Part shown: in pieces, positions 1,632 through 47,431 of the stretch
How positions within the stretch are numbered: the stretch's first letter is position 1
Layout of the letters: each line of letters starts with the position of its first letter
Assembly: GCF_014930455.1 (NCBI RefSeq)
Contig: NZ_JAAIYO010000003.1
Location: 248,001 to 312,000, forward strand
From: Corallococcus soli
Lineage (GTDB): Bacteria; Myxococcota; Myxococcia; Myxococcales; Myxococcaceae
DNA length: 64,000 nucleotides
Direction of reading: 5' to 3'
Notes under the pieces: generated by a model
What the model saw: the letters and a program-made list of their open reading frames with translations, nothing else
Database searches by the model: none
What the model was told of the DNA's origin: nothing
Program-made: the position numbers and the translations under genes

Positions 1632-3019
1632 TGCCCTCCACCTTGTTGGACACGCAGCGGTTGATCGCCACCGGCGCCCTGGCCCCCCTGTGGGAGGGGC
1701 TCCAGGCGGCCCGCCCGTACGGGCCCAGCCAGCAGTGGGTGCTGGACAGCCCGTACCTGCGCCCCACGGCGCTCGGGGGGCTGTCGCTCGGTTCGCTGGA
1801 GGAGCCGGTGCGGACGGGCTCCCTCTTCACGCACCGCTCGCTGTCGCTCAACCGGCTGCTCTTCAACGCCTACGAGCAGAACAACCTCTACCTGCCGGTG
1901 TCGGCCTTCACGGAGGCGGAGCACCGGGCGTTCCACGACTTCTACGAGCCGGGCTTCGTGGCGGCGAACGCGATGCTCCGTCCGGCGCTGGAGCGCACCT
2001 GCTTCGAGTTCCTCTCCGAGGACATCAGCGTGGACGGCCCGTGGACGCTCGCGCACCTGGAGGAGTACTGCCAGCAGCTCTTGACGCGCTACGAGGCCGC
2101 GCCCAGCGAGGTGTGCCGCCGGGTGGAGGCCTCCGCCGCGCCGGACCTGGCGGCGAAGCTCTTCATCCTCCAGGTGGCCCCGGACTTCCTGTCGGAGGCG
2201 TCGCAGATGGCGCGGGCGCTGCCGGGCAACTTCGGCCCGGTGCATTCGGAGCTGATGAAGATCTTCATCGACGAGTTCGGCTACGGGGTGCACCCGCACA
2301 AGCACTCGACGCTGTTCGAGAAGCTGCTGGAGTCGCTGGGGCTGAGCAGCGGGGTCCACGCGTACTACCACTGGTACCTGCCCAGCTCGCTGCTGATGAC
2401 CAGCTACTTCCACTGGGTCACCAGCCACAAGCCGCGCTGGTTCGAGTACGTGGGCGCGCTCTGGTGGATCGAGGCGGTGGTGCCGCACTTCAACCGCCAG
2501 TTCAGCAAGAGCCTCAGGAAGGTGTTCGGCCGGGAGGGCGTGGACACGCTCTACTTCGACGAGCACGTGGGCATCGACCTGCACCACCGGAGGATGGCGC
2601 TCGACAAGCTCATCCGGCCGCTGGTGCAGCGCTATGGCGAGGCCATCATCCCGGAGATGGTCCGCGGCATCGAGGCCAGCCGGCTCCTGGGGGACCTGGC
2701 GGAGCGGGACTACTTCGAGCAGCTCGACTTCTGCGAGGCGCTGCACACGGGCCGGGCGGTGTGTGCCACGACGGTGGAGCCGTCGCGGGCCACGCCCCGG
2801 CCCGCGGGCTTCTTCCTGGCGCCGGACGTGCATGACGAGGCGTCACTGCTCGCGGTGACGGCGGGCACGGTGGAGGTGGACGCCGGCTTCCTGAAGCCCC
2901 GGGTGCTCCGCGCGGGCGAGTCCGTCGTCGTGCCCGCAGGGCGGATGGTGGGGGCGCGGGTGGTGGGGGAGGGCGCCTCGCTGTGGGTGGGACCGAGCCG
3001 GGAGGCAGGCTCGCGATGA
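1631..3019 (+). CDS. Heme-oxygenase-like diiron oxygenase with degenerate C-terminal cupin (SznF-like layout)
   Basis: A 462-residue protein of the iron-containing redox enzyme/HDO superfamily. Counting from the ATG at 1631, the residues matching the seven diiron ligands described for SznF are present: E189, E215, H225 (E-x9-H in IDEFGYGVHPHKH), E281, then H312, D316 and H319 (H-x3-D-x2-H in EHVGIDLHH). The C-terminal 80 residues have cupin-like beta motifs (LLAVTAGTVEVD, VVVPAGRMVG), but the first motif keeps only one His (DVH where HxH is usual) and the second motif has none. SznF N-hydroxylates a guanidine and rearranges it in its cupin. Here N-oxygenation or another diiron oxidation is possible, while the cupin chemistry should be lost. 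A GTG at 1628 is an alternative start. It is coupled on both sides to the desaturase and the Rieske gene. Confidence 0.85.
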   Translation: MPSTLLDTQRLIATGALAPLWEGLQAARPYGPSQQWVLDSPYLRPTALGGLSLGSLEEPVRTGSLFTHRSLSLNRLLFNAYEQNNLYLPVSAFTEAEHRAFHDFYEPGFVAANAMLRPALERTCFEFLSEDISVDGPWTLAHLEEYCQQLLTRYEAAPSEVCRRVEASAAPDLAAKLFILQVAPDFLSEASQMARALPGNFGPVHSELMKIFIDEFGYGVHPHKHSTLFEKLLESLGLSSGVHAYYHWYLPSSLLMTSYFHWVTSHKPRWFEYVGALWWIEAVVPHFNRQFSKSLRKVFGREGVDTLYFDEHVGIDLHHRRMALDKLIRPLVQRYGEAIIPEMVRGIEASRLLGDLAERDYFEQLDFCEALHTGRAVCATTVEPSRATPRPAGFFLAPDVHDEASLLAVTAGTVEVDAGFLKPRVLRAGESVVVPAGRMVGARVVGEGASLWVGPSREAGSR

Positions 3020-3333
3020 TGTTGGAACTGGAGGCGCGGCACTGGAGCCAGGTGCGCGTGGAGGACGAGCGCTACCTCTGCCTTCGCCTGGGAGCGCGCT
3101 GGAGCGTCATCCTGGACCGCTGCAAGCACAAGGGCGGGCCGCTCAGCAAGGGGACGTGGGACGAGGCGGCCCAGGGCATCCGCTGCCCGTGGCACGACCT
3201 GCTCAATTCGCCCCGTGACCTGGCGCGCCGACAGGTGCCGTCGGTCCGCGTGGGGGCGGTGATCCGCTTCCTCGTCCCCGACCCCGCCGCGTCCCCGGAA
3301 GCCCCGGCGCGTCGCGCCCCGGTCGCTTCGTAA
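3016..3333 (+). CDS. Small Rieske [2Fe-2S] protein
   Basis: A 105-residue single-domain Rieske protein. The cluster motif is complete: C36-x-H38, then C57-x2-H60 (CKH ... CPWH) with 18 residues between the halves. There is no catalytic mononuclear-iron domain, so it should be an electron carrier. The start ATG at 3016 overlaps the stop of the diiron oxygenase (ATGA); an ATG at 3019 is the alternative. Position and coupling suggest that it passes electrons to the HDO or to the desaturase. No ferredoxin reductase is encoded nearby, so a housekeeping one would have to supply it. Confidence 0.88.
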   Translation: MMLELEARHWSQVRVEDERYLCLRLGARWSVILDRCKHKGGPLSKGTWDEAAQGIRCPWHDLLNSPRDLARRQVPSVRVGAVIRFLVPDPAASPEAPARRAPVAS

Positions 3334-3363: not shown

Positions 3364-6300
3364 ATGGCCCAGGTCATTCCCATTGCGCACGCTCGGGTGG
3401 ACCCCTCGGCGGGGGCGGACGCCGAGGGCTTCCAGCCGCTCAGCCACGCGCAGCAGCGCATCTGGCTGATGGAGCAGCTCCACCCGGGCACGGCCTTCGC
3501 GAACCTGGGCGGCCTGCTGGTGGTGCGCGGGCCGGTGCGCCTGGAGCTGCTGGCGCAGGCGCTGGAGCGCTTCGCCCGGAGCACGGAGGCCCTGCGGCTG
3601 GAGCTGCGCGTCGAGGCAGGGCAGGCCCGGCAGCGCCTGGGCCATGTGCCCTCGCCCCGTGTGGAGCAGGTGGACTTCTCCCAGGACGCGGACCCCAGCG
3701 CCGCCGCCGAGGCCTGGTGCACGGAGCGCGTGCGGACGCCGTTCGCGCTGCCGGGCGGGCCGCTGTACAGGCTGGCGGTGGTGAAGCTGGGGGACGGGCG
3801 CGGGGGCTACTTCGCGTGCGTGCACCACCTGGTGGGGGATGGGTTCTCCCTGGGGCTGCTGGTCCGGGCCGTGGGCCGCCACTACGCGGCGCTCGTGGCG
3901 GGGGGGGACGCGGCGTCGGTGGTGGAGTCGGAGTCGGAGCCGTCCTACCTGCGATACGTGGCGCGGGAGCGGGGCTACCTCGCCTCGGCCGAGAGCGAAC
4001 AGCACCGCCGTCAGTGGCAGGAGCTGCTGGAGGGCCGGGAGGCGGGGGGGCTCTTGCGCGCGGTGGGCACGCCCTTCGACGACACGCGCGCGGTGCGCCA
4101 CACCCTCTGCCTGGACGCGGAGCAGACGCGGGCGGTGGCCCGGGTGGCGCAGCACGCGGAGAGCACGGTGCCCCGGCTGTTCGCCGCGCTCACGGGGCTC
4201 TTCGTGTCCCGGCTGACGGGGCAGCGCGACACGTGCCTGGGGACGTTCGTCCACGGCCGCGCCGCGCGGGAGGACCTGCTCACCTTCGGGATGATGGTGG
4301 GCACCGTGCCGGTGCGCTTCGACGTGGACGGCGCCGCGCCCTTCGCGTCGCTCCTGCGCGCGGTGGGCGCGGCCCAGCAGCGCTCGCTGCGGGGCCAGCG
4401 CTATCCGTTCGACCTGCTCGCGCAGCAGCTGCGCGCCGGGGGGCTGGAGGGGCCGCCCCTCTTCGACGTGCTCGTCTCCTTCCAGAACGGACGCTTCGAC
4501 GCGCAGCTGGGTGGCCACCCGGTGGACGTCACCTGGCTCTTCAACGGGCATGAGGCGCATTCGCTCGCGGTGCATGTGAGCGACAGGCTGGGGCAGGGCC
4601 TGCTCACGGTGGACCTGGACTTCCGGCGGAGCGCCTTCCCCCCGGAGGGACCGGCCGCGCTGGCGGAGTCCTTCCGGCAATTGCTGGGCGAGGTGCTGGG
4701 CGAGGACGGCGCGCGGCCCGTGGGGCGGCTGTCCCTGGTGGGCCCGGCGCAGGCGGAGCAGCTCGCCGCGTGGAACCCAGCGCCCCGGCCGTTCCCGCGT
4801 GAGCGTTCCGTGGCCGTGCTGCTGGCGGAGCGGGCCGCGCGCGTGCCCGAAGCGGTGGCCGTGCGGGATGGGGGCGTGGGCGTCACCTACGCGGAGCTGG
4901 AGGCGCGTTCGGCGCGGGTGGCGGCGGCGCTGCGCCTCCGGGGCGTGGGGCCGGGGGCGGTGGTGGGGCTCCTGACGGACCGGACGGTGGCGTTGCTCGT
5001 GGGCCTCAAGGGCATCCTGCTCGCGGGCGCCGCCTACCTGCCGCTGGATGGGCAGCAGCCCCGGGAGCGGCTGGCGATGCTGCTGGAGGACGCGGGCGTG
5101 CGCCACGTCGTGGTGGATGCGAATGGCGCGCGGACGCTGGAGGGCGTGGCGGTGGAGGCAGTGTCCGTGGAGGGCACCGCTTCGGGCGCGGAGGCGCTCA
5201 GCGTGGGCACGGCGGAGGCCCGCCCCGAGGACGTGGCCTACGTGCTCTACACGTCGGGTTCGACGGGCCGCCCCAAGGGCGTGCAGGTGCCCCACCGGGC
5301 GGTGAGCAACTTCCTCGCGGCGATGGTGGACGCGCTGCCGCTGGAGGGCGAGCGGCTGCGCTTCCTGTGCACCACGACGGCGACGTTCGACATCTTCGCG
5401 CTGGAGACCCTGCTGCCGCTGTGGCTGGGGCACGAGGTGGTGCTGGCCGACGAAGCGTCCCAGCGCGCACCGGAGCGCCTGGGGGCCCGCATCCAGGAGA
5501 CGGGCTGCCACGTGGTGCAGCTCACGCCGTCGCGCCTCCAGTTGGTGCTGGAGGACCCCGTGGGGCGGGCCGCCCTGGCCGGGGTGCGGCTGCTGCTCGT
5601 GGGGGGGGAACCGCTGCCGGCGCACCTGCTGGCGCGCGTGCGGACGCTCACGTCCGCGCGCATCTTCAACCTGTACGGGCCCACGGAGACCACGGTCTGG
5701 TCGACGGTGAGCGAGCTGACGCACAAGGTCGCCGTGGACGTGGGGCGGCCGGTCCTCAACACCCAGGTGCTGGTGCTGGACGCGGCGGGGGAGCTGCTGC
5801 CCCCGGGCGTCGTGGGCGAGCTGTGCATCGCGGGCGAGGGGCTGGCCCGGGGCTACCTGGGGCGGCCGGAGCTGACGGCGGAGCGCTTCGTGGCGTCCGC
5901 GCTCGCGCGGGGCGGGCGGATGTACCGCACCGGCGACCGCGCCCGGTGGCTGCCCTCCGGCGAGCTGGAGCACCACGGGCGCGGCGATCTCCAGGTGAAG
6001 CTGCGCGGTCATCGCATCGAGCCCGGCGAAATCGAAGCGTGCCTGGTGACGTCGGGCGTGGCGTCTGCCGCGGCGGTGGTGGTGCGCACGGACGCGGTCG
6101 CGGGGCCGGTGCTCGCGGCGTTCTACGTGCCGCGCGAGCCTTCACGTCCGCCTCGCGAGGTCCTGTCGCGGCTCCTTCCCGCCGCCCTGGTGCCGGCGCA
6201 CTTCGTCCCGCTGACGGCGCTGCCCACGCTGCCCAGCGGCAAGGTGGACCGCAACGCGCTGGTGCTGAAGCCCGGGCAGGGGCTGGAGGACGCGCCGCGC

Positions 6301-9300
6301 GTCGCGCCCGCCACGCCGACCGAGGCCCGGCTGCTGCCGCTCTTCCAGCAGGTGCTGGGCGCGGAGGGCCTGGGCGTGACGGACTCCTTCCTTGAGCGCG
6401 GAGGGCACTCCCTGCTCGCGGTGCGGCTGGCGCACCGGGTGACGGAGGCGACGGGGCGCCGGGTGTCGCTGGTGGACGTGTTCCAGGCGCCCACGGTGCG
6501 CGCGCTCGCGGAGCGCGTGGACGCCGCGGAAAAGGCCTGGGCTCCGTTGCCCCAGGTCGCGGACGCCGCGCATTCCCCCGTCCTGGCGGCGCAGGCGCAG
6601 CTCTACGTGCTCCAGGCCCAGGCCGGCGCGGACGACCCGCGCTACCACATGACGGGCGCGCTGGCGCTGACGGGCGCGGTGGACGCGGGCCGCTTGGAGG
6701 AGGCGCTGGTGGCGCTGGTGCGGCGGCACGAGGCGTTCCGCACGTCCTTCGTCCTGGTGGACGGGGAGGTGCGGCAGCGCGTGGCCGCGTCGGTGCCCTT
6801 CCGGTTGGAGCGTCGGGCGTCCGAAGAGGACGTGCCCTCGCTGGCGCGCGCCTTCGCGCGACCGTTCGACCTGACGACGGCGCCGCTGTTCCGGGCGGCG
6901 CTGGTGGAGCGAGAGGCCGCGCCCGCGCTGCTGCTCGTGGACCTGCACCACCTCATCTCCGACGCCGCGTCGGTGGAGGTCGTGCTCCGGGAGCTGGTGG
7001 CGCTGTACGCCGGAGCGCCCCTGCCGCCCCCGGGGCCCGGGCCCCGGGTCGCCGCCGCGTGGCAGCGGGAGCGCCTGGCGTCTCCAGAGGCGAGCGCCCA
7101 GGCCGCGCACTGGCGGCGGGTGCTCACGCCGCCGCCCCCGCCGCTGGACCTCCCCTCCGATGGGCCGCGCACCCAGGCCGCCTCGCTGGAGGCCGACGCC
7201 CGAACCGTGGCGCTGTCCCCGGAGCTCACGGCGCGGCTGGGGGCGCTGTGCCAGCGCCAGGGGACCACGCTGTTCAACGGACTGCTGGCGGCCTTCGCGG
7301 TGCTGCTCTCACGCCATGGCGCCACCCGCGACGTGGCGGTGGGCGTGCCGGTGCTCGGACGCGGACACCCGGAGCTGCGGGACGCGGTGGGCCTGTTCAT
7401 GGACACGGTGGTGCTGCGCAACACCGTCCGCGAGGAGGAGTCCGCCCTGGCTTTCCTGTCGCGCGTGTCCCGCGCCACGCAGGAGGCGCTCGCGAACCAG
7501 GAGCTGCCGTTCGCCCACGTCGCGGCGCAGGCCCAGGAGGGCGCCGGCACCGCGCGGGGGGCGCTGTTCGACGTGTTGTTCAGCCTGGAGGAGGGCGGCC
7601 CGGCGGTGCTGGATGCAGGGGCGGGCCTGGGGCTGGAGCGGCTGGATGCGCCCCTGCCCACCTCCAAGGTGGAGCTGACGCTCACGGCGCGGGTGAGCGG
7701 TGACGGCCCCGTGCTGCTGGAGTGGAGCTTCCGCCGCGCCCTCTTCTCCGCCGCCCGCATCGAGCGGATGGCGCGGCGCTACGTGTGCCTGCTGGAGGCG
7801 CTGGTGGCGCATCCCCAGGCGGCCCTGCGCGAGCTGTCCCTGTTTCCCCCCGACGAGGACGCGCGGCTGCGCGCGGGCTTCAACGTCGCGCACCACGAGC
7901 ACGCTTCGCACCGGACGGTGGGGGAGCTCTTCGCGGACCAGGCGGCGCTCCAGCCGGAGGCGCTGGCCGTGTGGCACGAAGGCCAGGGGCTGACGTACCG
8001 GGAGCTGGATGCGCGCAGCAACGCGCTGGCGCGGCGGCTGCGGGGGCTGGGCGTCGGGCGCGAGGCGGTGGTGGCGGTGCTCTCGCGGCCGTGCGTGGAG
8101 ATGGTGGTGGGCATCCTCGCGGTGGTGAAGGCGGGCGGAGCGTGGCTGCCCCTGGACCCCGCGCATCCACCGGAGCGCACGGCGCTGCTGCTGAAGGACG
8201 CGGGCGCGCGCTGGCTGCTGGAGGACGTGGAGCACCCGGCCGTGCGCTTCGAAGGGACGCGGTGTGGCCTGGGCGGGGTGGACGCGGAGGGTGGGGACAC
8301 CGCGCCGCTGCCCGGCGTGAGCGGGCCCGGGGACCTGCTGTACGTCATCTACACGTCGGGGACGACGGGCGCGCCCAAGGGCGTGATGATGGAGCACCGG
8401 GCGCTGAGCAACCAGGTGCACTGGCTGCGGCGGATGTTCTCCCCGGCCGGGCGCCTGCGGCACCTGCTGCTGGTGTCCCCCGCGGTGGACGTGTCCGTGC
8501 ACCAGCTCTTCCTGCCGCTGATGCGGGGCGACGCGCTCTTCCTGCCCACGTACGACACGCTGGTGTCGCCCGAGGCGCTCCACGCCTACGTCGTGGAGCA
8601 CGGCATCGACGTGGTGGACTCCGTGCCCGCGCTGCTCAAGGGGCTGCTGGAGCTGGGCAGCGCGCAGCGCAAGCTGAAAGTCCCCTACCTCTGCTTCGGC
8701 GGGGACGTGCTGGGCGCCAGCGTGGTGGAGCTGGTGGAGCGCCACGCGGACATCTCCACGCTGGTCAACTACTACGGGCCCACCGAGGCGTGCCTCAACA
8801 CCACGGCGCTCTTCACCCGCGACTGGCGGCGGTACACGCAGGTGCCCATCGGGGTGCCGGTGGACAACTACCGCATCTACCTGGTGGACGCGCACCTCAA
8901 CCTCGTGCCGCCGGGAACGCCCGGCGAGCTGTGCGTGGGCGGCGTGGGACTGGCGCGCGGCTACCTGGGGCGCCCGGACCTGACCGCGGAGCGCTTCGTG
9001 CCCAACCCCTTCGCGCCGGGCGAGCGCATGTACCGCACGGGCGACCTTGCCCGCTGGCTGCCGGACGGACAGGTGGACTTCCTGGGCCGGGTGGATCAGC
9101 AGGTGAAGATCCGCGGCTTCCGCGTGGAGACGGGGGAGGTGGAGGTCGTCATCAGCCGTCTGCCCGACGTGGCGGACAGCGTGGTGGCGGCGCTGGACTA
9201 CGGTCGTGACGGCAAGCGGCTGGCGGCGTTCGTGGTGCCGCGCGCGGGCACCCGGCTGGAGCTGGGGACCCTGCGCGAGGCCCTCAAGGCGAAGCTGCCC

Positions 9301-12300
9301 GCGTACATGGTGCCGTCGCTGCTGGTGCCCCTGGACGCGCTGCCGGTGACGGTGAGCGGCAAGGTGGACCGCAAGGCGCTCGCGGCGCTCGCGGCCTCGC
9401 AGGACGCGTCGCCGGTGGAGGCCGTGCGTCTCCTCACGGAGTCCGAGCAGCGGGTGGCCCGCATCTGGTCCCAGGTGCTGGGGGCCTCCGTCACGCGGCC
9501 CTCGGAGGACTTCTTCGACCTGGGGGGACACTCCCTGCTCGCGACCCAGGTGTCGTCGCGGCTGCGCGCGGAGCTGGGCGTGGAGGCGCCGCTGCGGCTG
9601 CTGTTCGCGCACCCGGTGCTGGAGGACTTCGCGCGGGCGCTGGCGTCGCAAGGCATGCTCCCCGTGGCGGAGGAGCGCATCCCCGCGGTGCCGCGCACCG
9701 GACCCCTGCCCGCGTCGTCCGCGCAGCAGCGCCTGTGGTTCCTGGATCAACTGGAGCCGGGCAGCCCCCTCTACACCATCGCGGGCGCGGTCCGGCTGGA
9801 GGGGCGCCTGGACGAGGGCGCGCTGGACGGCGCGTTCCGACAGCTCGTGGCCCGTCACGAAGCGCTGCGCACCACGTTCGCGGTGCGGGATGGCCAGTGC
9901 GTCCAGGTCATCCACCCGACGATGGACTTCACCCTGGAGCGGGAGGACGTGTCCGGGACGCTGGACGAGGAGGCCCTGGCGCAGGCCGCGCGGCGGCCCT
10001 TCGACCTGGCCACGGGGCCGCTGTTGCGCGTGCGGCTGTATCGCCTGTCCGAGGAGCGGCACGTCGTGCTGGTGGCGATGCACCACATCGTCGCGGACGG
10101 GTGGTCCATCCACCTGCTCCTCCAGGAGCTGGCGCGCACCTACGCGGCCCGGGTGACGGGCACGGTGGAGGCCCTGGCCTCGCTGCCCATCCAGTACGCG
10201 GACTATGCCGTCTGGCAGCGCGAGGGCGCCGGTGCGCGGACGCTGGCGGCGGACCTGGCCTTCTGGAAGGAGCACCTGGGGGAGCGTCCGCCACCGCTGC
10301 GCCTGCCCACGGATCGCCCACGTCCGGCGGTCCAGACGACCCGGGGCGCGCTGCTCTCCGGGGTGCTCCCGCTGGAGCTGGCGCGGGCCCTGGAGGCGCA
10401 GGGACGCGGCGGGGGGCGCACGCTCTTCATGACGTTGCTGGCGGCCTTCCAGGCGCTGCTGCACCGCTACACCGGACAGCGCACCGTCATCGTGGGGACG
10501 CCCATCGCGAACCGCACCCGCCAGGAGGTGGAGGGGGTGCTGGGGTGCTTCGTCAACACGCTGGCGCTGCGCGCGGACGTGGATCCGGAGGAGCCCTTCG
10601 CGGTGTTCGCGGAGCGCGTGGGGCGCACCGTGCTCGCGGGCTACGCGCACCAGGCGCTGCCCTTCGACGTGCTGGTGGAGCGGCTGGGCGTGGAGCGGGA
10701 CCTGAGCCAGTCGCCGCTGGTGCAGGTTCTGTTCGTGCTCCAGAACGCGCCCGGCGGCGCGGTGGAGCTGCCGGGGTTGCGGATGGAGTCCCGGGAGGTC
10801 TCCACGGGGACCGCGAAGTTCGACCTCTCGCTGGCGATGACCGAGGCGCCGGAGGGGCTGGAGTACACCTTCGAATACAACACCGACCTCTTCGAGTCCG
10901 GGACGGTGGAGCGGCTGGCGCGCGGCTTCCAGGTGCTCCTGGAGGGCCTGGTGCAACGGCCGGACGCGCGGCTGCGCGAGCTGCCGGTGCTGCCGCCGGA
11001 GGAGCGGCGCTTCCTGGACGCGCTGAACGCGACGGCGGCGCCGGTGGAGTGCGGGCTCGCGCACGAGCTGCTGGAGCGGCAGGCCCATCTGCGGCCGGAC
11101 GCGACCGCGCTGGAGCACCGGGGCGTGGGGCTGACGTACGGCGACTGGGATGCGCGGGCCAATCAGGTCGCCTGGGCCCTGCGCGAGCGGGGCGTGGGGC
11201 CGGACGACGTGGTGGCGCTCTGCCTGGAGCCATCCCTGGACCTGCTGGTGGCGCTCTTCGGCATCCTGAAGGCCGGGGCGGCGTACCTGCCGCTGGACCC
11301 TGACTACCCGCCCGAGCGGCTGGCCTTCATGCTGCGCGATTCCGGGGCGCGGGTGCTCGTCACGCGGGAGTCCCTGCTGGGCACGACGTCCCCGCCGGAC
11401 GGGGTGGCGTGCTTCCTCTGGGAGCGCGAGGCCACGGCCCTGGGGCGTCAGCCGGTGGAGGCCCCGCCCCTGGAGGGCACGCCGGATTCGCTCGCGTACC
11501 TCATCTACACGTCGGGCTCCACGGGCGTGCCCAAGGCGGTGATGGTCCCCCACGGCGCGCTGGTGAACTTCAGCGGCGCGGCGTCGCGGGCGTATGGGCT
11601 GACGCGGCAGGAGCGCATGCTGCTGCTCGCGTCGATCAGCTTCGACATCAGCGTGGAGCAGATCTTCTGCTGCCTCTTCGTGGGCGGGACGCTGGTCCTG
11701 CGCGAGCACGACACCCTGGATTCGATCGCGACCTTCCTCGCGCACGTTCGCGCCTGGGACGTCGGGCTGCTCACCCTCCCGTCCGCGCTCTGGACGGAGC
11801 TGGCCAATGAGCTGGAGAAGGGGACGCTCGTCCTTCCGCCGTCGGTGCGCGCGGTGGTCCCGGGCGGGGAGAAGATCCTCCCATCCCGGGTGCTGGCATG
11901 GCGCAGGCGGGTGGGCCCCTCCGTCCGGTTGATCAACTCCTACGGCCCCACCGAGTGCACGGTCATCGCCACCGCCTGCGACCTGGTCTCGCTGGAGGAG
12001 TCCGTGCTGGAGACGCGCGAGGTGCCCCTGGGACTGGCCATCCAGAACCTGAGCGTGCACGTGCTGGACGCGCACCTCCAGCCGGTGGCGCGGGGCGTGG
12101 CGGGGGAGATCTTCATCGGCGGGATGGGCGTGGCCCGGGGCTACCACCGGCGGCCGGAGCTGACCGCGGAGCGCTTCATCCCGGATCCGTTCTCCTCCGT
12201 GCCCGGGGGCCGGCTGTACCGCACGGGCGACGTGGCCCGGCGCATGGATGACGGCAATGTGGAGTACCTGGGCCGCAGCGACCACCAGGTGAAGCTGCGC

Positions 12301-12906
12301 GGCTTCCGCGTCGAGCTGGGGGAGATTGAAACCGCGCTCAGCGCGCACCCGGACGTGCGGGACGTGGTGGTGGCGGTGCGTGAGGAGCCCCCGGCGGGCA
12401 AGCGGCTGGTGGCCTACGTCACGCCGCGCGGAGAGGTCCGTCCCACGGGCGCCACGCTGCGGTCGTTCCTCAAGGATCGGCTGCCGGACTACATGGTCCC
12501 CGGCGCGTACGTGTGCCTGGACGCGCTGCCCATCGCACCGGGCGGCAAGGTGGACCGCGCCCGGCTGCCGGCCCCGGAGCGCGCGGCAGCGGAGGAGTTC
12601 GTCGCGCCCGAGGGCGAGCTGGAGCTGACGCTCGCGCGCGTGTTCTCGGACGTGCTCGCGGTGGCGAGGGTGGGGGCCACGGAGGACTTCTTCGCGCTGG
12701 GAGGGCACTCGCTCCTGGCCACCCAGCTCGTGGCGAGGCTGCGCGACGCGCTGGGCGTGGACGTGCCGCTGCGCCAGGTGTTCGAGCACCCGACGGTGGC
12801 GTCGCTGGCGAAGGTGGTGGCGGCGCTGCGCGACGCGGGCACCCCCGGCGTGGACGCGGAGCGCATTGGCCGCGCCTCGCGGCAGGGACGGAAGGTCAAG
12901 CGGTGA
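3364..12906 (+). CDS. Nonribosomal peptide synthetase 1, modules 1-3 (C-A-T x3)
   Basis: A 3180-residue NRPS with order C1-A1-T1-C2-A2-T2-C3-A3-T3 and no epimerase or terminal release domain. C active-site motifs are HHLVGDG (154), HHLISDA (1195; the usual final Gly is Ala) and HHIVADG (2240). Core A3 motifs lie at 629, 1663 and 2715, and carrier serines at S1016, S2057 and S3116. Pocket codes read by alignment to PheA positions: A1 DILQLGLVWK, a glycine code; A2 DVHDCGYLNK, not recognised, with a divergent A4 motif ([10 protein letters not shown]); A3 DIELVGSVIK, not recognised. The protein begins with a C domain, so the chain is probably started by an acyl group or an upstream donor. It sits 30 bp after the Rieske gene and overlaps NRPS 2 (GTGA). 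Confidence 0.97.
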
Positions 12907-15900
12907 GTGCCCTGGAACAGCCCGCGGTGGACCTGGAGGCCGACGAGGTCTTCGTCTTCCCGGCGTCGTCCGCGCAGCGGCGCCTGTGGTTCCTGGACCG
13001 GCTGGAGCCGGGCCTCGCGACCTACAACATGCCCTTCGCCCTGCGGCTGACGGGCACGCTGCGCGAGGACGCGCTGGCCGCGAGCCTGGACGCGCTCGTG
13101 GATCGTCACGAATCACTGCGGACCGCGTTCGCCGAAGAGGACGAGCAGGTGGTGCAGCTCATCCACCCGCCCCGGTCCGTGACCTTGCGGCGCGAGTCCC
13201 TGGCCGGGCTGCCCTCCGGTGAGCGGGAGGCAGCGCTGCGGGCCCTCTGCACCCGGGAGGCGGATGCACCGTTCAACCTCACTGAGCCGGGGCTGCTGCG
13301 CGCGGTGCTCGTGGCGTTGGACGGCACCGAGCACGTCCTCCTGCTGGTGCTGCACCACATCATCTGCGACGGCTGGTCGGTGGGGGTGATGACCCACGAG
13401 CTGGCGGCGCTGTACGCCGCGCGGTGCGAAGGCAGGCCGCCCGCGTTGCCGGAGCCGGAGCTCCAGTACGTGGACTTCAGCGAGTGGCAGGAGGCGTGGC
13501 TTCGCTCCGAGGCCCCGGGCCGCCACCTGGAGTCCTGGCGCGAGCGGCTGGGCGGCGAGCTGCGCCCGCTGGAGCTGCCCGCGGATCATCCGCGTCCGGC
13601 CCGCTCCCTCCATCACGGCGCCACGCGCGCGTTCGCGCTGCCCCGCGCCCTGTCCGACGGGGTCCGGCGCTTCGGTCAGGAGGAGGGCGTCACGCCCTTC
13701 ATGACGTTGCTCGCGGCGTTCAGCGCGCTGCTCCACCGCTTCACGGGGGAGACGGACGTCATCGTGGGGACGGCCATCGCCGGACGGCCCCGCCGGGAGC
13801 TGGAAGGGGTGGTGGGCTTCTTCGCCAACACCCTGGCCCTGCGGGTGTCGCTCGCCGGGGCGCCGTCCTTCCGCGAGCTGGCGCGGCGGGTAAAGGCCGT
13901 GACGCTGGAGGCGTACGCGCATCAGGAGCTGCCCTTCGAGCACCTGGTGGAGGCGCTGAGCCTGCCGCGCGACCTGGGCCGCAATCCGCTGTTCCAGGTG
14001 ATGCTGGTGCTGGAGAACCTGCCCCCGGGTGAGTTCCAACTGCCCGGGCTGGTGCTGCGCCCGCTGGAGATTGAAAGCCACTCCGCGAAGTTCGACCTGA
14101 CGCTCTCCTTGCAGGAGACGCCCGGGGGGCTCGTCGGCCATCTGGAGTACAGCCGCGAGCTGTTCGAGCCGTCCACGATGGACCGCTGGCTCGTCCACTT
14201 CGAGCGGCTCCTGGACACCGTGCTGGCGCGGCCCGCGGAGCGGTTGGACTTCCTGCCGCTGCTGCCGCCCTCGGAAGCGGCGCTGCTCCTGGACACCTGG
14301 AGTCCTCCCGGGGCCCTGCCGCGCGACGGCTCGCTGCTGCACACCCGCTTCGAGGCGCAGGCCCTGCGCACCCCGGACGCGGTGGCGGTGGCGGACGCCA
14401 CGCGCGCGTGGACGTACGCGGAGGTGGAGCGCCGGGCCAACCGGCTCGCGCGGCACCTGGTGGAGCGGGGCGTGGGGCCGGAGGTGCGGGTGGGCGTGTG
14501 CCTGCGGCGCACGGTGGACCTGCCGGTGGTGCTGCTCGCCGTGCTCAAGGCCGGCGGGGCCTACGCGCCCCTGGATCCGAACTATCCCGCGCAGCGGCTG
14601 GCGTACCTGTTGGAGGACTCCGTGGCGGCGCTGGTCATCAGCGAGCGCGCGGTGCTGGCGGCCCTGCCGGAGGCGCGCCCGACGACGCTGGTGTTGGAGG
14701 ACCTGGAGGCGCTGCTGCTGGACGAGTCCGAGTCCGAGGCCGCGCTCCCGCCCCGCGCCTGGCCGGAGGGGCTCGCGTACCTCATCTACACGTCGGGCTC
14801 CACGGGCCGGCCCAAGGGCGTGGCCATCGAGCACCGGAGCGCGGCGCTGCTGCTGACCTGGGCGCTGGACGTCTTTCCCCCCGCGATGCTGGACGGGGTG
14901 CTCGCCGCCACGTCCGTCTGCTTCGACCTGTCCGTGTTCGAGATGTTCGTCCCCTGGGCACACGGAGGGCGGGTGCTGGTGGTGGGCAGCGTGCTGGAGC
15001 TGCCCGGCTTCTCTCGGCGTGACGAGGTGACGCTCGTCAACACGGTGCCCTCGGCCATGGCGGAGCTGCTGCGCGTGGGGGGACTGCCGCGCTCGGTGCG
15101 GGGCGTGAACCTCGCGGGCGAAGCGCTGCCCCGGCGCACCGTGGACGGGCTCTACGCGCTCGACCATGTGGAGCGCGTCTACAACCTCTACGGACCGTCG
15201 GAGGACACCACCTATTCGACGTGGGAGTTGATTCCCCGGGACGAGGCGCGGGGCCCCACCATTGGCCGGCCGCTGGAGAACACGCGCGCCTATGTGCTGG
15301 ATGCCTCCTGGCGGCCGGTGCCGCTGGGCGTGCCGGGCGAGCTGTTCCTCGCGGGTGACGGCCTGGCGCGCGGCTACCTGCTGCGGCCGGACCTCTCCGC
15401 GGAGCGCTTCGTGCCGGATCCGTTCGGTCGCGAGCCCGGGGGCCGGATGTACCGGACCGGGGACAAGGTGCGCTGGCTGAGCGACGGTCGCCTGGAGTAC
15501 CTGGGCCGGTTGGACCATCAGGTGAAGGTCCGCGGCTACCGCATCGAACTGGGGGAGGTGGAGGCCCGGCTGCTGGCCCTGCCCGACGTGGCGGACGCGC
15601 TCGTGATGGCCCGCGAGGACACCACCGGGGGACAGCAGCTCGCGGGCTTCGTCGTGCCCCGGGAGGGACGGACGCTGGGCCCTGGGGTCCTGCGCGCGGC
15701 GCTGCTGGAGCACCTGCCCGAATACATGGTGCCGTCCGTCTGGTCGGTGCTCCCGAAGCTGCCGCTGACGCCCAACGGCAAGGTGGATCGCGCGGCCCTG
15801 CGGACGGCCGCGCTGGTGCAGGGCGCGGACGGAGCCGGGGCGCGGGCCCCCCGGACACAGACGGAGGCGCGGCTGTGCACGCTGTGGGAGGAGCTGCTGG

Positions 15901-18900
15901 GTGTCCCGGTGCGGGACGTGCAGCGGGGGTTCTTCGAACTGGGCGGGCACTCGCTGCTGGCGATGCGGCTGCGCTCCCGGATGGAGGCGCTCTTCGAGGT
16001 GTCCCTGCCGCTGCGCGTCCTCTTCGAGGCGCCGACGGTGGAGGAGCTGGCGGCCCGGCTGGACGCGGCGCGCGGCGGACTCCGCCTGCCTCCGGTGGAG
16101 CCCCAGCCGCGTCACGCGCCGCTGCCCCTGTCCTCCGCGCAGCAGCGCCTGTACTTCCTGGAGCAGCTGGAGCCGGGCAGCGCGTTCTACACCATCGCCA
16201 CGGCGCTCCGGCTCACGGGGGCGCTGGCGCCGGAGGCGCTGGAGCGGACCCTGCGCGCGCTGACCGTCCGCCACGAGGGCCTGAGGGCGCGCTTCACGCT
16301 GATGGACGGCGAGCCCGTCCAGTCCTTCGCGCCGGTGGACTTCGCGCTGGAGCGGGTGGATGCCTCCGGTCTGGCGCCGGACGCCCGCGAGTCGTGGGTG
16401 GTTGCGCGCGCCACGCGCTTCATCCGGCAGCCCTTCGCGCTGGGGCATGAGGCGCCGTTCCGCGCCCAGCTCTACACGGTGGGCGCGCAGGAGCACTGGC
16501 TGGTGCTCGCCGTGCATCACCTCGTCGCCGACGGCGCGTCCATCCAGGTGCTGCTGCGCGACGCGGCCGCGCTCTATGCCGGGGAGCGCAGGGGCACGCC
16601 GGCCCTGCTGCCCGCGCTGCCGTACCAGCCCGCGGACCATGCCGTGTGGGAGCGGCGGCTGTGGGCGGAGGAGCGGCTCGCGCCGCAGCTGGCGTACTGG
16701 GAGGCGAAGCTGGCCGGACCGCTGCCGGTGCTGGAGCTGCCCGGGGACTTCCCGCGTCCCGCGCAGCGCACGGACCGGGGTCGCACGCTCCACTTCGAGC
16801 TGTCGCCGGCGCTCGCGGACGCGCTGCCCGCCCGGGCCCGCGCCTGGGACGTCACGCCCTTCATGCTGCTGCTCGCGGCGTTCCAGGCGGTGCTTGCCCG
16901 CCACACGCGACAGGACGACATCCTCGTGGGCACGCCCATCGCGGGGCGGGACGTGGCCGGCAGCGAGTCGCTGGTGGGCTGCTTCATCAACACGCTCGTC
17001 CTGCGCACGGCGGTGGATCCGGCGACGTCCTTCGAGTCGCTGGTGGCGCGCGTGAAGACCACCTGCGTGGAGGCGTTCAGCCACGCGGACCTGCCGTTCG
17101 ATCGGCTGGTGCAGCACCTGCAACCGCCGCGCAGCACCGCGCACACGCCGCTGTTCCAGGCGATGTTCGTGCTCAACGCGCAGCCAGCGGGGCAGGGCGC
17201 CTTCGCGGACGTGGCGGTCGCGGAGGTGCCCCTGGAGTCGGGCACGTCCACCTTCGATCTCACCTTCACCGTGCTCCAGCGGGAGCAGGGGATGGGGGTG
17301 GCCATCGAGTACTCCACGGACCTGTTCGAGCCTGGGACCTTGGCCCGCCTGTTCGACGCGTACGAGGCGCTGCTCGCCGACGCGCTGGCGCGGCCCGAGA
17401 CCCGGCTGGACGCCCTTCGCCTGATGTCCTCCGGGGCCCGCGCGCGGTGGCTGTCAGAGCGGTCGCCTACGGTGCACGCCCTGCCAGGGGAGGCGACGGT
17501 GGTGTCCCGTTTCGAGGCGCAGGCGGCGCTCACGCCCGGGCGCACCGCGGTCGTGGCGGTGGACCGGACGCTGTCCTACGCGGAGCTGCGCGATGAGGCC
17601 TGGGCGCTCGCGGCGCGGCTGCGTGCGCGCGGCGTGGGGCGGGGGCACAGGGTGGGCGTGTGCCTGGAGCGGACGCACCGGATGCCGGTGGTCCTGCTGG
17701 GCGTGCTGAAGGCGGGCGCGGCGTACGTGCCGCTGGATCCCCACTTCCCGCGCGAGCGGCTGGCGCTGATGGCGGAGGACGCGGGGTTGCGCCTCACGCT
17801 CACCGAGCAGGGCTGTGAAGCGCGCCTGGGCGCGGAGGCGGGCGCCTTGTGGTGCCTGGACGCGCCAGAGCTTGAGGGCCCGGACGCGGGCGACGGCGCC
17901 GGGCCGGGCCCGCTGGGGCTGGACGAGGCATACGTCCTCTACACGTCCGGCTCCACCGGCCGGCCCAAGGGCGTGAGCGTGCACCACGCGGCCCTGGAGA
18001 ACTTCCTCACCTCCATGGAGGCGGCCCCGGGGCTGTCCGGCGACGACGTGCTGGCGGCCGTCACCACGCTGTCCTTCGACATCGCCGGGCTGGAGCTGTA
18101 CCTGCCGCTCCGGGTGGGCGCGCGCATCGAGCTGTGCACGCGGGACGAGGCCCAGGACGCGTCGAGGCTCGCGGAGCGGCTGGAGCGCGCGGGCGCGACG
18201 GTGATGCAGGCCACCCCGACGGCGTGGCGGATGCTGCTGGAGGCGGGCTGGACGAACGCGCGGCGGATGACGGCGCTGTGCGGCGGCGAACCCCTGCCGA
18301 CCGATCTCGCCGCGCGGCTCCTCGCCACGGGCGGGGCGCTGTGGAACCTCTACGGCCCCACGGAGACCACGGTCTGGTCCACGGTGGAGCGCGTGCGGCC
18401 AGGGGAGGCGCGGCTGATGGTGGGCCGCCCCGTCCTCAACACCCCGGTGTACGTGCTGGATGCGCGCATGGAACCGGTGCCTCCCGGCGTGTGCGGCGAG
18501 GTCTTCATCGGGGGCGAGGGCGTGGCCCGGGGCTACGTGGGGCGCGCCGCGCTCACGGCCGAGCGCTTCGTGCCGGATCCCTTCAGCGCCACGCCGGGCG
18601 CGCGGCTGTACGCGACGGGCGACGTGGGCTGCCTGCGCGCTGACGGGAGGCTGGAGGTGCGCGGGCGCGAGGACGCGCAGGTGAAGGTGCGGGGACACCG
18701 CATCGAGTTGGGCGAGGTGGAGGCCGCGCTTCGGAGTGTCCCCGAGGTGAGGGACGCGGCGGTCGCGGTGCGCGAGGCGGGTGCCGGTGCGGCGCGGCTC
18801 GTGGGGTACGTGGTGGCCCGGTCCGGTGCGCGGTTGTCGCCGGAGGGACTGCGGCAGGCGTTGGAGTCGCGGCTGCCGGCGTACATGGTTCCGTCCGCGT

Positions 18901-21900
18901 TCGTGGTGCTGGAGGCGCTGCCGACGACGCTGAACGGCAAGGTGGACCGCAAGGCGCTCCCGGAGCCGCCGGTGGAGCGCTCGACGGGGAGGGCACCGTC
19001 GGGTCCCCGGGAGCAGTGGGTGGCGCGGGTGTTCGCGGAGGTGCTCGTCCGCGAATCGGTGAGCGCGGACGACAGCTTCTTCGCGCTGGGGGGAGACTCC
19101 GTCTCGGCCATGCGGCTCGTGTCCCGGCTGCGGCGCGAGGGCTTCGCGTCCTCGCCGAAGCAACTCTTCGAGCACCCCACGGTTGCGGGGTTCGCCGAGC
19201 AATTGGTGCCGTTGGAGTCGGAGCCCGTCGCGGCGCTCGCGCCCGGGGATGCCGTGCCCCTCACCTCCATGCAGCGGGGCATGCTCTTCCGGGCGTTGTT
19301 CTCGCCTGCGTCGCGCGACTACTTCGAGCAGGTGGGCGGCATGCTCTCCGCGGATCTGGACGTCGTCGCGTTCCAGGAGGCGTGGAAGGCCGCGCTGGAG
19401 CGACACGCGGCGCTGCGCACGGTGTTCGTGCTGGACGGCGCAGGCCCCCCGGCGCAGCGGATCATCGAGCGCTTCGAAGCTGGTGTCTCGCCGCCGTGGA
19501 CGGTGGTCGAAGGCGTGGGCGTGGCCGCGGTATCCGACGCCGACTGGCTGCGCTTCCTGGAGGAGGATCTCCAGCAGGGCTTCCCGTTGACGCAGGGACC
19601 GCTGCTCCGGCTGGCGCTGTCCCGGGCGCCCTCGGGCCTGTGGCGGTTCGCGCTGTCCTTCCACCACGCCATCCTGGATGGCTGGAGCCTGGGTCTGCTG
19701 CTGGCGGAGGTCGCGGAGCACCATGACGCCGTGCGCGCCGGGAGGACGCCCGTGTTCGCGGCGCCTCCGGACTTCCGCCACTTCGTGCGCCACGAAGGGG
19801 GGCAGGACCTGGGCCCGGCGCGGGCGCTGTGGACGGAGGCGCTCCGGGGCTTCGACTCGCCCACGCCGCTGCCCCACGACGAACGGGACCTCCCCGTGCG
19901 GTCCGGGGAGCCTCACTACGCCCGCCACGCGGTGGAGCTGGACGGCCGCGAGACGCAGCGGCTCCAGGACTTCTGCGCGCGCCACGGGCTGACGTTGAGC
20001 ACGCTCGTCCAGGCTGCCTGGGGGCTGGTGCTCGCGCGGCATGCGGGGACGGCGGAGGCCGTGTTCGGCTCGCTGGTGTCGGGCCGCTCCGCGCCGGTCG
20101 AGCGCGTCACGGAGCTGGTGGGACTGCTCGTCAACACGCTGCCGGTCCGCGTCCGCGTGACGTCCGGGCAGCCCGTGCTGACGTGGCTGCGCGAGCTGCA
20201 ACGCCAGCAGGCCGAGCTGCGCGAGCACGAACTCGTGCCGCTGGAGCAGGTCCAGCGTTGGAGCGAGGTGGGCGCCGGGCGGCTCCTCTTCGAGAGCGTG
20301 CTCGTGGTGGACCCCTGGCCCCTTCGCGGCGGCGAGCGGGGCGTCTTCGCGGGCGGCGTCGAGGAGCTGGGCCCGCCGCGCACGGGGTTCCCGCTGCACC
20401 TGGCCGCATATCCCGGCGCGTCGCTGGGGCTCGCGCTCACCTACGACACGAACCGCCATGGCGAGCAGGCCGTGGCCCGGCTCGCGAGCAGTCTGCGCAC
20501 GGTCCTCTCGGCGATGGTCGCGGGCCCGGAGCTGTCCGTGGGCCGGCTGTCCCTGCTGGGGGCGGAGGAGCGGCAGGAACTGCTGCTCGCGTGGAATCCG
20601 ACGACGCACGTCTTCGAGCACCCGTGCCCGCTGCACGTTCCGTTCGAACAGCAGGCCGCGCGCACGCCGTCGGCCATCGCCCTGGAGATGGAGGGGCGGT
20701 CGCTGACGTACGCGCAGCTCGACGCGCGGGCGAACCTGCTGGCGCACCGGCTGCGCGCGCAGGGCGTGGGACCGGAGGCGCTGGTGGGCGTCTTCCTGGA
20801 GCGCTCGCTCGACATGGTCGTGGGGCTGTACGGCATCCTCAAGGCGGGCGGGGCCTGGCTGCCCCTGGAGCCGGCGCTGCCGCCGGAGCGCCTGCGCCAG
20901 ATGGTGGAGGACGCGCGTCCCCTGGTGACGCTCACGAGCCGGGCCCTTTCAGGGAAGATGCCCGAAGGCGCGGGCCTCGCGTGCGTGCTCGACGACGGCG
21001 CGTGGGCGGCCGGGTTGGAGCCCTCCGCCTCCGCGCGGCCTCCGCCGGACGGCGCGGGGCTGGATCATCCCGCGTACTGCATCTTCACCTCGGGTTCGAC
21101 GGGGCGGCCCAAGGGCGCGCTCGTCACCCATCGCGGCATCCACAACCGCATCGCCTGGATGCAGGACGCCTACGGGCTGGGGCCCGGGGACCGGGTGCTC
21201 CAGAAGACGCCCTTCAGCTTCGACGTGTCCGTCTGGGAGTTCTTCTGGCCGCTCGCGGTGGGGGCCCGCCTGGTGGTGGCGCGCCCTGGCGGTCACCAGG
21301 ATCCCGCCTACCTCGTGCGGACCCTGGCCGCCGAGCGCATCACCACGGTGCACTTCGTGCCGTCCATGCTCCAGTTCTTCCTGGAGGCCCCGGGGCTGGA
21401 GTCGCTGGAGTCCCTCACGCGCGTCTTCTGCAGCGGCGAGGCGCTCCCGGGCGCCCTCCAGCGCCGCGTGTTCGAGCGACTGCCCCACGCCGCGCTCCAC
21501 AACCTCTACGGCCCCACCGAGGCGTCCGTGGACGTGTCCCATTGGACGTGCCGGCCCGGGGACGCGCGGCCCACCGTGCCCATCGGATTCCCCGTCTTCA
21601 ACACGCGGATGCACGTGCTGGACGCGGACCTCAACCTGCTGCCTACCGGCGCGCTGGGAGAGCTGTACCTCGGCGGCGTGCAGCTGGGGCGCGGCTACCT
21701 GAACCGGCCCGCCTTGACGGCAGAGCGCTTCATCCCCGACCCCTGCGCGGTGGAGCCGGGCGCGCGGCTGTACCGCACCGGAGACCTGGCGCGGCGGCTG
21801 GAGGACGGCTCGCTGGAATACGTGGGCCGGGTGGACAGCCAGGTGAAGGTGCGCGGCTTCCGCATCGAGTTGGGGGAGATCGAAGCGGTGCTCCTGGGCC

Positions 21901-23240
21901 TGCCCGAAGTGGCTGAGGCCGCGGTGGTGGTGCGTCAGGCGCCGGGAGGAGAGGCGTTGCTCGTCGCCTACGTCGCGCCCCGGGCAGGGAGCGCCCGCCC
22001 GGATTGGGCCGACACCCTGCGCGTGGCGCTGGCGCGAGTGCTCCCCGAATACATGGTGCCGGGCCGCTTCGCGGTGCTGGAGCGGCTGCCCCTCACGTCC
22101 AGCGGCAAGGTGGACCGCCGCGCGCTGCCGGCCCTGTCCGACGTGACGGGCGACGCGGGCCGAGCAGTCGTCGCGCCCCGGAACGCGCGCGAGGCGGTGC
22201 TGGTGGAGCTGTTCGAGCGCGTGCTCGGCGTGACGGGCGTGGGGGCGACGAGCGACTTCTTCCAGCTCGGAGGCCACTCCATGCTCGTGCTGCGGTTGCT
22301 GGCGCGGATGGAGGCGGCCTTCGGGGTGCGGCTGCCGCTCGCCGCGCTGTTCCAGACGAGCACGGTGGAGGGGCTCGCCCGCGCCGTGGAGACGGCCGGA
22401 GGGGAGCAGGGCGTGCTGGTGCCCCTGGGCGGTGAGGGGGACGCGCCACCGCTGTTCCTCGTCCACCCGGTGGGCGGCAACGTCCTGTGCTACCGCGCGC
22501 TGGGCGAAAGGCTCACGGGCCGGCGGCTCTACGCCTTCCAGTCCCAGGGCGTCACCGGCGCCGCGCCGGACACGACGGTGGAGGCGATGGCCGCGCGGTA
22601 CGTGCGCGAGCTGCGCCGGGTGCGACCGTCCGGCCCGTACCACCTCTTCGGCTGGTCCATGGGCGGCGTCATCGCCTTCGAAATGGCCCGCCAGCTCGAT
22701 GCGGCGGGGCAGGTGGTGGCCGAGCTGTGCCTGCTGGACGCGACGCTGGAGGGCTTCGAGCAGCCGCTCGGGCCCGGGGACGACGCGGCGCTCCTGGGCG
22801 CCTTCGCGGTGGACCTGGGCTTGTCCGAAGGGGCCGTGGAGTCGCTCGCGCCGGGCGCCAGCCTGCCGGAGCTGCTGCGGGCCGCGCGGGACGGCGGCGT
22901 GCTGCCCGAGGACGCGCCGCTGGAGACGCTGGAGCGCCTGTACGCGGTGTTCCGCGCGAACCTGGAGGCCCTGCACGCCTACCGCCCGGGGCCGTACGCG
23001 GGAGCGCTGACCCTGCTGGCGGGGGCTGGGGGCGGCATCCAGGAGGCCACCTCCCCCGACTGGGGCTGGGCCCGCGTCACGCGGGGCGGCGTGCGGACGC
23101 TGCTCGTTCCCGGCGACCACTACCAACTCTTGAACCCGTCCCATGTGCGCGCCGTGGGCAACGCCCTCCAGTCGCTGCTCGAAGGCGACCTGACGGCCAC
23201 CGCGCACGCACCCACCCACGAAAGGAACCCAGGGCCATGA
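12903..23240 (+). CDS. Nonribosomal peptide synthetase 2, modules 4-6 plus thioesterase
   Basis: A 3445-residue NRPS with order C4-A4-T4-C5-A5-T5-C6-A6-T6-TE. C motifs are HHIICDG (151), HHLVADG (1205) and HHAILDG (2254). Core A3 motifs are at 629, 1680 and 2728; carrier serines are S1017, S2066 (in LGGDS) and S3126. Pocket codes: A4 DLFNNALTYK (alanine), A5 DILQLGLVWK (glycine, same as A1) and A6 DVWHFSLVDK (serine). The TE has S3252 in GWSMGG, D3279 and H3406, so a hydrolysed or cyclised product is released. C6 is of the QRGMLF type, unlike the other five C domains. The GTG at 12903 was chosen: it overlaps the NRPS 1 stop and follows GGAAGG; a longer in-frame extension back to 12513 is only a shadow of NRPS 1. 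It is coupled to the oxygenase by ATGA. Confidence 0.97.
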
Positions 23241-24649
23241 ACTTCTACCCGAAGCACCTCTTCCCCTTCACGCAGGAGCTGGAAGCGAACTACCCGGCCA
23301 TTCGCGCGGAGGCGGAGCGGCAGATCGAAGCCCGGTTCAAGCCGTACGCCTATTCGGACGTGTACACGGCCGGGTGGACCACGTTGGACCTGCTGTACCA
23401 CGACAACCGGTTGGACGTGCGCAACCGCCCGCGCTTCACCGTGTCCGACTGCACGGATCCGCTCCAGCTCTTCACCGTGCTGCTGGGCGATCCGACCTCG
23501 TTCGAATCGGGCCTGCTCCAGGCGCGCCTGGGCGAGGAGACGATGCGCGAGCTGTCCTCGTACACCTCGCCGCACGACTGCACGCCCTCGATGATCGACC
23601 GGCTGGTGGCCGGCATGAACGCGGTGGTGGCGGACGCCGGCTTCTTCGTGGAGCACCAGCGGCGGCTCACCCTGGATGACCGCGCCCCGCGCTCGCGCGA
23701 GCGGCTGGCGAAGCTGCTGGCGGCCGGCCGGCTGGTGCAGCGCGACGGCCAGTACGCGCTGGGACGGGTGGAGGACGACGAAGCCCGGGAGCAGCTGCGC
23801 TGGCTCCACGTCGCGGTGCTGGAGGAGGTCGTCTACCCCAGCTTCCTGAAGAAGGGCGGCCTCACCGAATTCAAGGACGTGACGGACGCGTGCCCGGTGA
23901 CGACGTCCATCGTGAAGAAGATCCCCGGCCTGCGCAGCGTCTGGTTCTCCTGCCTCGCGCCCGGCTCCCACATCCTGGCGCACACGGGCAACGACGCCAC
24001 GATGCTCCGTTGCCACCTGGGCCTCATCGTCCCGGGCGACGCGGTGATGGCCGTCGGTTCGCACCGCGTGTCGCCCAACGACTTCAAGGACGTGGATCGC
24101 TTCCTGCCGCTCCTGGCCGAGGGCAACGACAGCCTGCCCGCGCGGCTGCTGCGGGACGCGCTGCCGGAGGCGGAGCGGCGCGCGCTCGAAGGACGCTCCT
24201 CGCTCTCGGTGGAGCGGACGGAGGATCCGGAGGGGACCTGGAAGCTGCTGTGGGCCGTGGCGGAGGCCCTCAACACGCGCATCGAGCAGCCGGGCTTCTG
24301 CCTGCCGTACCGGGACGCGACGCCGCACCCCGCCTCGCCGGTGTTCGACGAGACCTTCGCCCGGCTCCAGGCGCAGGGCGTGCTCACGGCGAAGGGTGAG
24401 GCCGCGCCCGCCGCGCTGGCGTCGGAGTCCGGCCGCGAGGAGCTGCACTACCTCAACACGCTCTTCTTCATTGAGCGCGCGTTCCCGGAGGTCCTCGCCA
24501 AGTCGCCGCGCGTGCGGCGGGAGTTCATCTCCTGGGAGGAGGGGCGCTGCTTCGTCTTCGACGACACCCAGTACCACGAGGTGTGGCAGCGCTCGGATCG
24601 CAACCGGGTCATCTTGAACGTCGACGTGGACCGCGAAACCTACGCCTGA
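23237..24649 (+). CDS. Aspartyl/asparaginyl beta-hydroxylase-type 2OG-Fe(II) oxygenase
   Basis: A 470-residue 2-oxoglutarate/iron oxygenase. The C-terminal half carries the AspH signature: [10 protein letters not shown] with iron ligand H260 and [11 protein letters not shown] with H447, followed by [10 protein letters not shown] (2OG-binding Arg region). In typical AspH proteins these histidines are about 46 residues apart. Here they are 187 apart, so about 140 residues are inserted within the fold. The first 240 residues match nothing I recognise. The ATG overlaps the NRPS 2 stop, so this is a tailoring enzyme made with the synthetases, probably a beta-hydroxylase of an amino-acid residue. 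No Asp or Asn module is predicted with confidence; X2 or X3 are possible targets. Confidence 0.87.
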
Positions 24650-24717
24650 GGACGCGTGCCGCGCGGTCCCGGGCCCCTTGGGGACGGAAGACCGCGCGCA
24701 CGCTGGAAGGAAACAAC

Positions 24718-42594: not shown

Positions 42595-42621
42595 CCCAAG
42601 GCTCCTGAAGAGAATTGGGAC

Positions 42622-47427: not shown

Positions 47428-47431
47428 GCCG

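Follow-up and report, generated by a model that had tools for sequence, protein, structure and literature searches.

A candidate adenylation-domain pocket for oxidised arginine beside a SznF-like N-oxygenase with a lost cupin site in Corallococcus soli

Enzymes that oxidise arginine are known from several biosynthetic pathways. Streptozotocin production relies on the arginine methyltransferase SznE and on SznF, in which a heme-oxygenase-like diiron N-oxygenase (HDO) domain is joined to a nitrosating cupin; when the histidine ligands of the cupin are mutated, dihydroxy-Arg accumulates unrearranged and formation of the product is abolished (PMC11705231). SznF-family enzymes also supply an arginine-derived residue to a dedicated adenylation (A) domain in the graminine pathways, such as those leading to gramibactin, tistrellabactin and chalkophomycin. 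GntB, of the guanitoxin and enduracididine route, is an arginine gamma-hydroxylase, while CtdA, a standalone B3/4-domain protein associated with a cluster degrading a toxic arginine analogue, deacylates canavanyl-tRNA(Arg) (PMC10018355). Arginine itself is activated by the first A domain of the anabaenopeptin synthetase ApnA, for which the pocket code DVEDIGAIEK gives Arg only and DVHDIGAIEK, found in genotype u, gives Arg with Trp (PMC5311044). Relatives of these components are encoded around a two-protein non-ribosomal peptide synthetase (NRPS) in a 64,000-nucleotide stretch of the 9.44 Mb Corallococcus soli genome, hereafter the window (G000:C3:248001-312000). It appears reasonably probable that an arginine analogue, produced by the genes upstream, is the substrate of module 2 of this NRPS, the predicted peptide being Gly-[oxidised Arg]-[Lys-like]-Ala-Gly-Ser.

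The synthetase consists of NRPS1 (3364..12906, modules 1-3) and NRPS2 (12903..23240, modules 4-6), both on the forward strand and each found by Pfam to comprise three condensation (C), three A and three thiolation (T) domains in a (C-A-T)x3 arrangement, followed in NRPS2 by a C-terminal thioesterase (TE). The six modules and their order, as proposed in an earlier sequence-only reading of this DNA, are therefore borne out; no epimerisation domain was detected by Pfam in either protein. NRPS2 starts with a GTG at 12903 that overlaps the stop of NRPS1, a longer open reading frame (ORF) from 12513 representing an upstream extension. The genome contains 129 AMP-binding matches in total, and Corallococcus terminator is the nearest named relative carrying the six-module cluster. 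In the window sequence, the active-site motif of the second C domain of NRPS1 is HHLISDA, as against the usual HHxxxDG.

The ten pocket-code positions of each A domain were taken automatically from a multiple alignment, rather than by eye, with a procedure that reproduced six published tistrellabactin codes (PMC10391617). It likewise returned DAEDIGTVVK, the canonical Lys code, for the MxcG protein of this genome. A1 (4825..5859) and A5 (17511..18536) both have DILQLGLVWK, and A4 (14349..15380) has DLFNNALTYK; these correspond to established codes for Gly and Ala, respectively. The A6 code DVWHFSLVDK (20643..21701) is near to the published Ser code DVWHVSLI. A2 (7930..8967) has DVHDCGYLNK, predicted to accept oxidised arginine, and A3 (11071..12147) has DIETVGSVIK, predicted to accept a lysine-like residue, all six domains being on the forward strand. 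Five of these codes agree with those of the sequence-only reading, which had given A3 as DIELVGSVIK by being one residue off at position 278; this is the T of LLT-LPSALW rather than the L, as MxcG (LLD-LPTAFW) and Mob (IAD-IPTGFW) have the ungapped local pattern x-278-[L/I]-P-[S/T] of the tistrellabactin domains, and A3 orthologues have S at this position (DMESVGSVIK). The statement that the A2 and A3 codes match nothing holds literally, in that neither was found printed in the literature searched, but in kind both have near relatives.

The nearest published pocket to A2 is that of ApnA A1, with which it has the pattern DVHD-x-G...K in common, so that the view of A2 as a domain of no known kin must be given up. 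The two are not identical: six of ten positions agree with the Arg-activating DVHDIGAIEK, D235, V236, H239, D278 and G301 being kept and I299C, A322Y, I330L and E331N changed. An oxygenated guanidine, being less basic, might be better accommodated without an acidic side chain at 331. A2 is also set apart from the other A domains of its own genome, scoring 1204 bits against itself and at most 384 bits against around 100 others. Its clade, defined by an E value of 1e-125 or better, was present in 12 of the 195 phylum genomes searched, all within one family, and a plasmid collection held no close relative, the best among the matches listed being at 44%. Across lineages in which the domain as a whole is 57-62% identical, the eight inner pocket residues are the same but for one substitution, C299G in genome G034, whereas the A3 pockets of those same lineages have only 37-50% identity. 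The structure predicted for A2 by AlphaFold, with a pLDDT of 56, was not good enough to be informative. A dedicated pocket for oxidised arginine from the upstream genes would best explain A2, which is chosen over A1 as the loader of their product in view of the ordinary Gly code of A1.

An Arg-like pocket would equally be expected if A2 loaded plain L-Arg and the upstream oxygenases acted later, either on the residue attached to its carrier or on the completed peptide, much as on-carrier nitrosation has been proposed for ChmO/ChmM (PMC10849742). However, SznF and GntB use free amino acids, the E331N and A322Y changes distinguish A2 from plain Arg pockets, and the B3/4 editing gene described below would be needed only if a free analogue occurred in the cell, making this alternative quite unlikely.

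The proposed oxidation of arginine is attributed to three genes lying upstream of NRPS1 on the same strand. The first (615..1631) encodes a membrane diiron hydroxylase of the FA_desaturase family (PF00487) with the three histidine boxes HDAAH, HLRHH and HVTHH, for which GntB is by far the best NCBIfam model; no GntC-like cyclase was recognised beside it. The second (1628..3019) encodes a SznF-like HDO (PF14518), and the third (3016..3333) a Rieske [2Fe-2S] protein (PF00355) with CxH and CxxH motifs, likely to be the electron donor to the HDO. The Rieske ORF was called from 2983; at 3016 is an ATG that forms an ATGA overlap with the stop codon of the HDO gene. Similar short start-stop overlaps join the desaturase-family gene to the HDO gene, NRPS1 to NRPS2, and NRPS2 to the PF05118 gene that follows it, giving the locus an operon-like appearance.

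The HDO matches SznF from end to end (E 1.2e-86; Foldseek TM 0.83), and all seven SznF diiron ligands (E189, E215, H225, E281, H311, D315 and H318) are retained as EEHEHDH in the window protein and the cassette members sampled. By contrast, the cupin triad H407/H409/H448 is replaced by D/H/V; no cassette homologue has the complete triad, and equivalents of His407 and His448 are never present. As the diiron ligands are kept and the cupin triad is lost, N-hydroxylation without nitrosation would be expected, and the protein is best treated as a SznF homologue without being filed as a nitrosating SznF. It thus resembles the streptozotocin enzyme in its whole-length homology, diiron ligands and arginine-oxidising logic, and differs in the loss of the nitrosation site and in its coupling to an NRPS and to GntB-like, B3/4 and arginase-family genes; no SznE-type arginine methyltransferase was recognised. 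Relative to the graminine pathways, in which the cupin is kept and a dedicated A domain likewise receives an arginine-derived residue, the HDO is kept here and the cupin lost, and the A2 code differs. ChmM of chalkophomycin biosynthesis is a mirror image, in which the HDO ligands are lost and the cupin kept (PMC10849742).

Since the structural prediction still shows a cupin beta-barrel with good confidence, it might be supposed that the vestigial domain is active through other ligands and yields a graminine-like amino acid with an N-nitroso or diazeniumdiolate group; DVH and G are common to A2 and the graminine code, DVHRTGLVAK. This is very unlikely, given the absence of a full His triad from every cassette member, the abolition of product by ligand mutation in SznF, and the tree, in which A2 and the graminine A domain compared are not related. 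A graminine-type siderophore was likewise considered and rejected on account of the lost cupin and the unrelated A domain, and no siderophore uptake genes were noticed nearby.

Other HDO genes of this kind were encountered elsewhere. A second HDO with a dead cupin, 63% identical and again paired with a Rieske gene, is present in genome G034 (L038, G034:C1:2313154-2314503), where the fetched region contained no NRPS, GntB-like or arginase-family gene. Many actinobacterial SznF homologues (L095, L098, L101 and L103-L121) do not have a complete cupin His triad (RHY, RAY or RYH), and most adjoin Rieske-like genes.

The distribution of these genes was compared through phyletic profiles, with the A2 clade searched across the phylum and its neighbours profiled across the 96 genomes of its family. 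The dead-cupin HDO was found in 12 family genomes, including 11 of the 12 with A2, and the sole A2 genome in which it was not matched (G023) has a contig ending inside the GntB-like gene. All 12 A2 genomes have the GntB-like gene, which occurs in 14 altogether; the B3/4 gene is in 13, of which 11 have A2 (11/12), and the arginase-family gene in 11, of which ten have A2 (10/12), both A2 genomes without it being fragmented assemblies. Intact-cupin SznF homologues (G033, G037, G040 and G068), on the other hand, show no association with A2 (Fisher p 0.42). Presence patterns agree closely within each genus, mismatches being mostly in fragmented assemblies. The informative cases are those in which genes co-occur without linkage: in G007, the B3/4, GntB-like, arginase-family, HDO and Rieske genes lie together 3.6 Mb from the NRPS, and a separate contig carries the B3/4 gene in G031 and likewise in G005. 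The strict co-occurrence, the Arg-like and invariant pocket, and the linked B3/4 gene together give good support to the proposal of the sequence-only reading that the substrate of module 2 is of guanidine type and modified by the HDO.

A number of observations nonetheless weigh against this interpretation. The GntB-like protein scores 138.8 bits against a model cutoff of 380, making it a relative rather than a member of that family, and both the substrate and the regiochemistry of the HDO are predictions. The co-occurrence p-values, which reach 1e-13, ignore phylogeny and overstate the independent evidence, since the majority of cassettes show physical linkage to the NRPS. A1, a Gly domain, tracks the cassette as strictly as A2 does, and genome G049 has the cassette with no A2 match at the cutoff used. 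The distance in the tree between A2 and the one graminine-activating domain compared is likewise unhelpful to the case, which is built on the comparison of sequences and genomes.

The sequence-only reading had also suggested that module 3 could take a guanidine- or amine-bearing residue modified by the HDO, and here the two parts of the claim separate. An amine-bearing substrate is consistent with the grouping of A3, on a long branch, with the lysine-type domain of MxcG, with which it shares five of ten code positions, and with the presence of Glu239; furthermore, the closest code is DAESIGSV of bacitracin Lys (BacB; PMC3207962), matched at five of eight positions by A3 and at six by its orthologues. 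In the orthologues from six-module clusters the code is DMES[V/N]GSVIK, and in related three-module clusters it is DAEWAGEVVK, DAEFAGEVIK or DSECGGEVVK, always with Glu239. The same cassette accompanies differing A3 codes, making A3 unlikely to take the HDO product; it probably loads a separate, lysine-like residue. The NRPS of the three-module clusters adjoins a gene recognised by eye as amidinotransferase-like; in one such relative (G040 contig 134; L028 and L029) both this and an EctB-type diaminobutyrate transaminase gene lie beside the NRPS, which suggests a diaminobutyrate- or guanidino-type residue 3. Residue 3 thus probably varies among basic amino acids, with residue 2 constant. That the HDO might instead act on the module 3 residue, giving for example N6-hydroxy-Lys, with A2 taking an ordinary one, is the least probable of the alternatives: HrmI, a Foldseek match with the same fold, does N-oxidise Lys, and A3 is lysine-like, but the HDO is of SznF type (TM 0.83, compared with about 0.5 to HrmI), and it is the A3 code, not that of A2, which varies between clusters sharing the cassette.

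At the left edge of the window, and running off it, is a gene on the reverse strand for a standalone B3/4-domain protein of 240 aa (1..346; full gene G000:C3:247627-248346), matched by PF03483 only (E 1.3e-20). It adjoins the cassette in nine genomes. Like CtdA, it stands next to genes for a potentially toxic arginine analogue, here in a biosynthetic rather than a degradative setting, the likeness being that of a standalone B3/4 domain. It is likely, by analogy, to be a deacylase of mischarged tRNA(Arg) that would keep false arginine out of proteins, and its regular presence with the cassette is suggestive of a free arginine analogue within the cell. Distant B3/4 proteins are also encoded near intact-cupin SznF homologues in Chitiniphilus and Jeongeupia (L091, L094 and L096), a hint that arginine N-oxidation may be accompanied by tRNA editing more widely.

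The arginase/agmatinase-family protein (PF00491; 29765..30652, reverse strand) falls below all NCBIfam equivalog cutoffs, such that only its family can be predicted. Its metal-ligand motifs, GGDHH, DAHPD and DLD, are intact, and with the gene missing only from the two fragmented A2 assemblies, the main competing explanation gives it a biosynthetic role: following N-delta hydroxylation, it would strip off the amidino group, releasing urea or hydroxyurea, and A2 would load an N5-hydroxyornithine-type residue, possibly C-hydroxylated. The DcsA/DcsB step of D-cycloserine synthesis offers a precedent. Yet the gene often runs in the other direction or is not linked (around 32 kb from the HDO gene in G003, and on another contig in G005), the A2 code is Arg-like and unlike the hydroxyornithine code DAEDTGRISK, and the presence of a B3/4 protein suggests an analogue that is charged onto tRNA(Arg), for which N5-hydroxyornithine is a less likely candidate. 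This route is accordingly regarded as unlikely, if the most serious of the alternatives.

Under the preferred interpretation, that A2 takes an oxidised arginine, the steps may be ordered provisionally as follows. L-Arg would be C-hydroxylated by the GntB-like membrane enzyme and its guanidine N-hydroxylated by the HDO, with electrons from the Rieske protein, and, with the cupin iron site lost, the reaction would not proceed to N-nitrosation. A2 would then load the analogue between Gly1 and the lysine-like residue 3, the first C domain possibly N-acylating the peptide and the TE releasing it. Any tRNA(Arg) wrongly carrying the analogue would be deacylated by the B3/4 protein. The arginase-family enzyme may destroy the free analogue or help to shape it. 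One residue of the six-module peptide is probably beta-hydroxylated by an Asp/Asn beta-hydroxylase family protein (PF05118; 23237..24649, forward strand), the gene for which overlaps the NRPS2 stop and stands beside NRPS2 only in clusters of the six-module type; in two six-module assemblies, G023 and G030, the sequence is cut short there.

Downstream on the forward strand are a conserved neighbour encoding a DUF5916 protein (24583..27270), with its true start probably further downstream, and a frequent neighbour encoding an M28 peptidase (26763..29753), with an over-extended ORF start. DUF5916 proteins are also encoded near SznF-like HDO genes outside the myxobacteria, in Acidobacteriota metagenome-assembled genomes (L083 and L084), and may be regular partners of such HDOs. 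Beyond these are an MFS transporter (30782..32116, reverse strand), a probable exporter, and a fused membrane/spermidine-synthase-like protein (32270..34366, forward strand), conserved beside the cluster in several genera, which could alkylate a basic residue. Further away, a run of genes resembling those of lysine fermentation, recognised by eye only and unexpected in an aerobic myxobacterium, occupies 39785-49436 and includes diaminohexanoate dehydrogenase-like (39785-40816), lysine 5,6-aminomutase-like (45401-46951 and 47432-48217) and BKACE-like (48555-49436) genes.

An assignment is thereby offered for a previously unreadable A-domain code, and the combination of the A2 code, a dead-cupin SznF homologue and a B3/4 gene provides a genome-mining handle for a group of myxobacterial peptides. 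Tentatively, and with a little less than even confidence, these may form a family containing N-hydroxylated, probably also C-hydroxylated, Arg, made by a SznF-family enzyme minus its nitrosating half, recognised through the new dedicated code DVHDCGYLNK and accompanied by CtdA-type editing as self-protection, since the free residue would be chargeable onto tRNA(Arg). If this is true, the SznF family has been split into halves, the ChmM type having kept the N-N-forming cupin and the window type the N-oxygenase, and tRNA editing is suggested to be a form of self-resistance, directed against a non-proteinogenic amino acid that the cell makes as a peptide building block.

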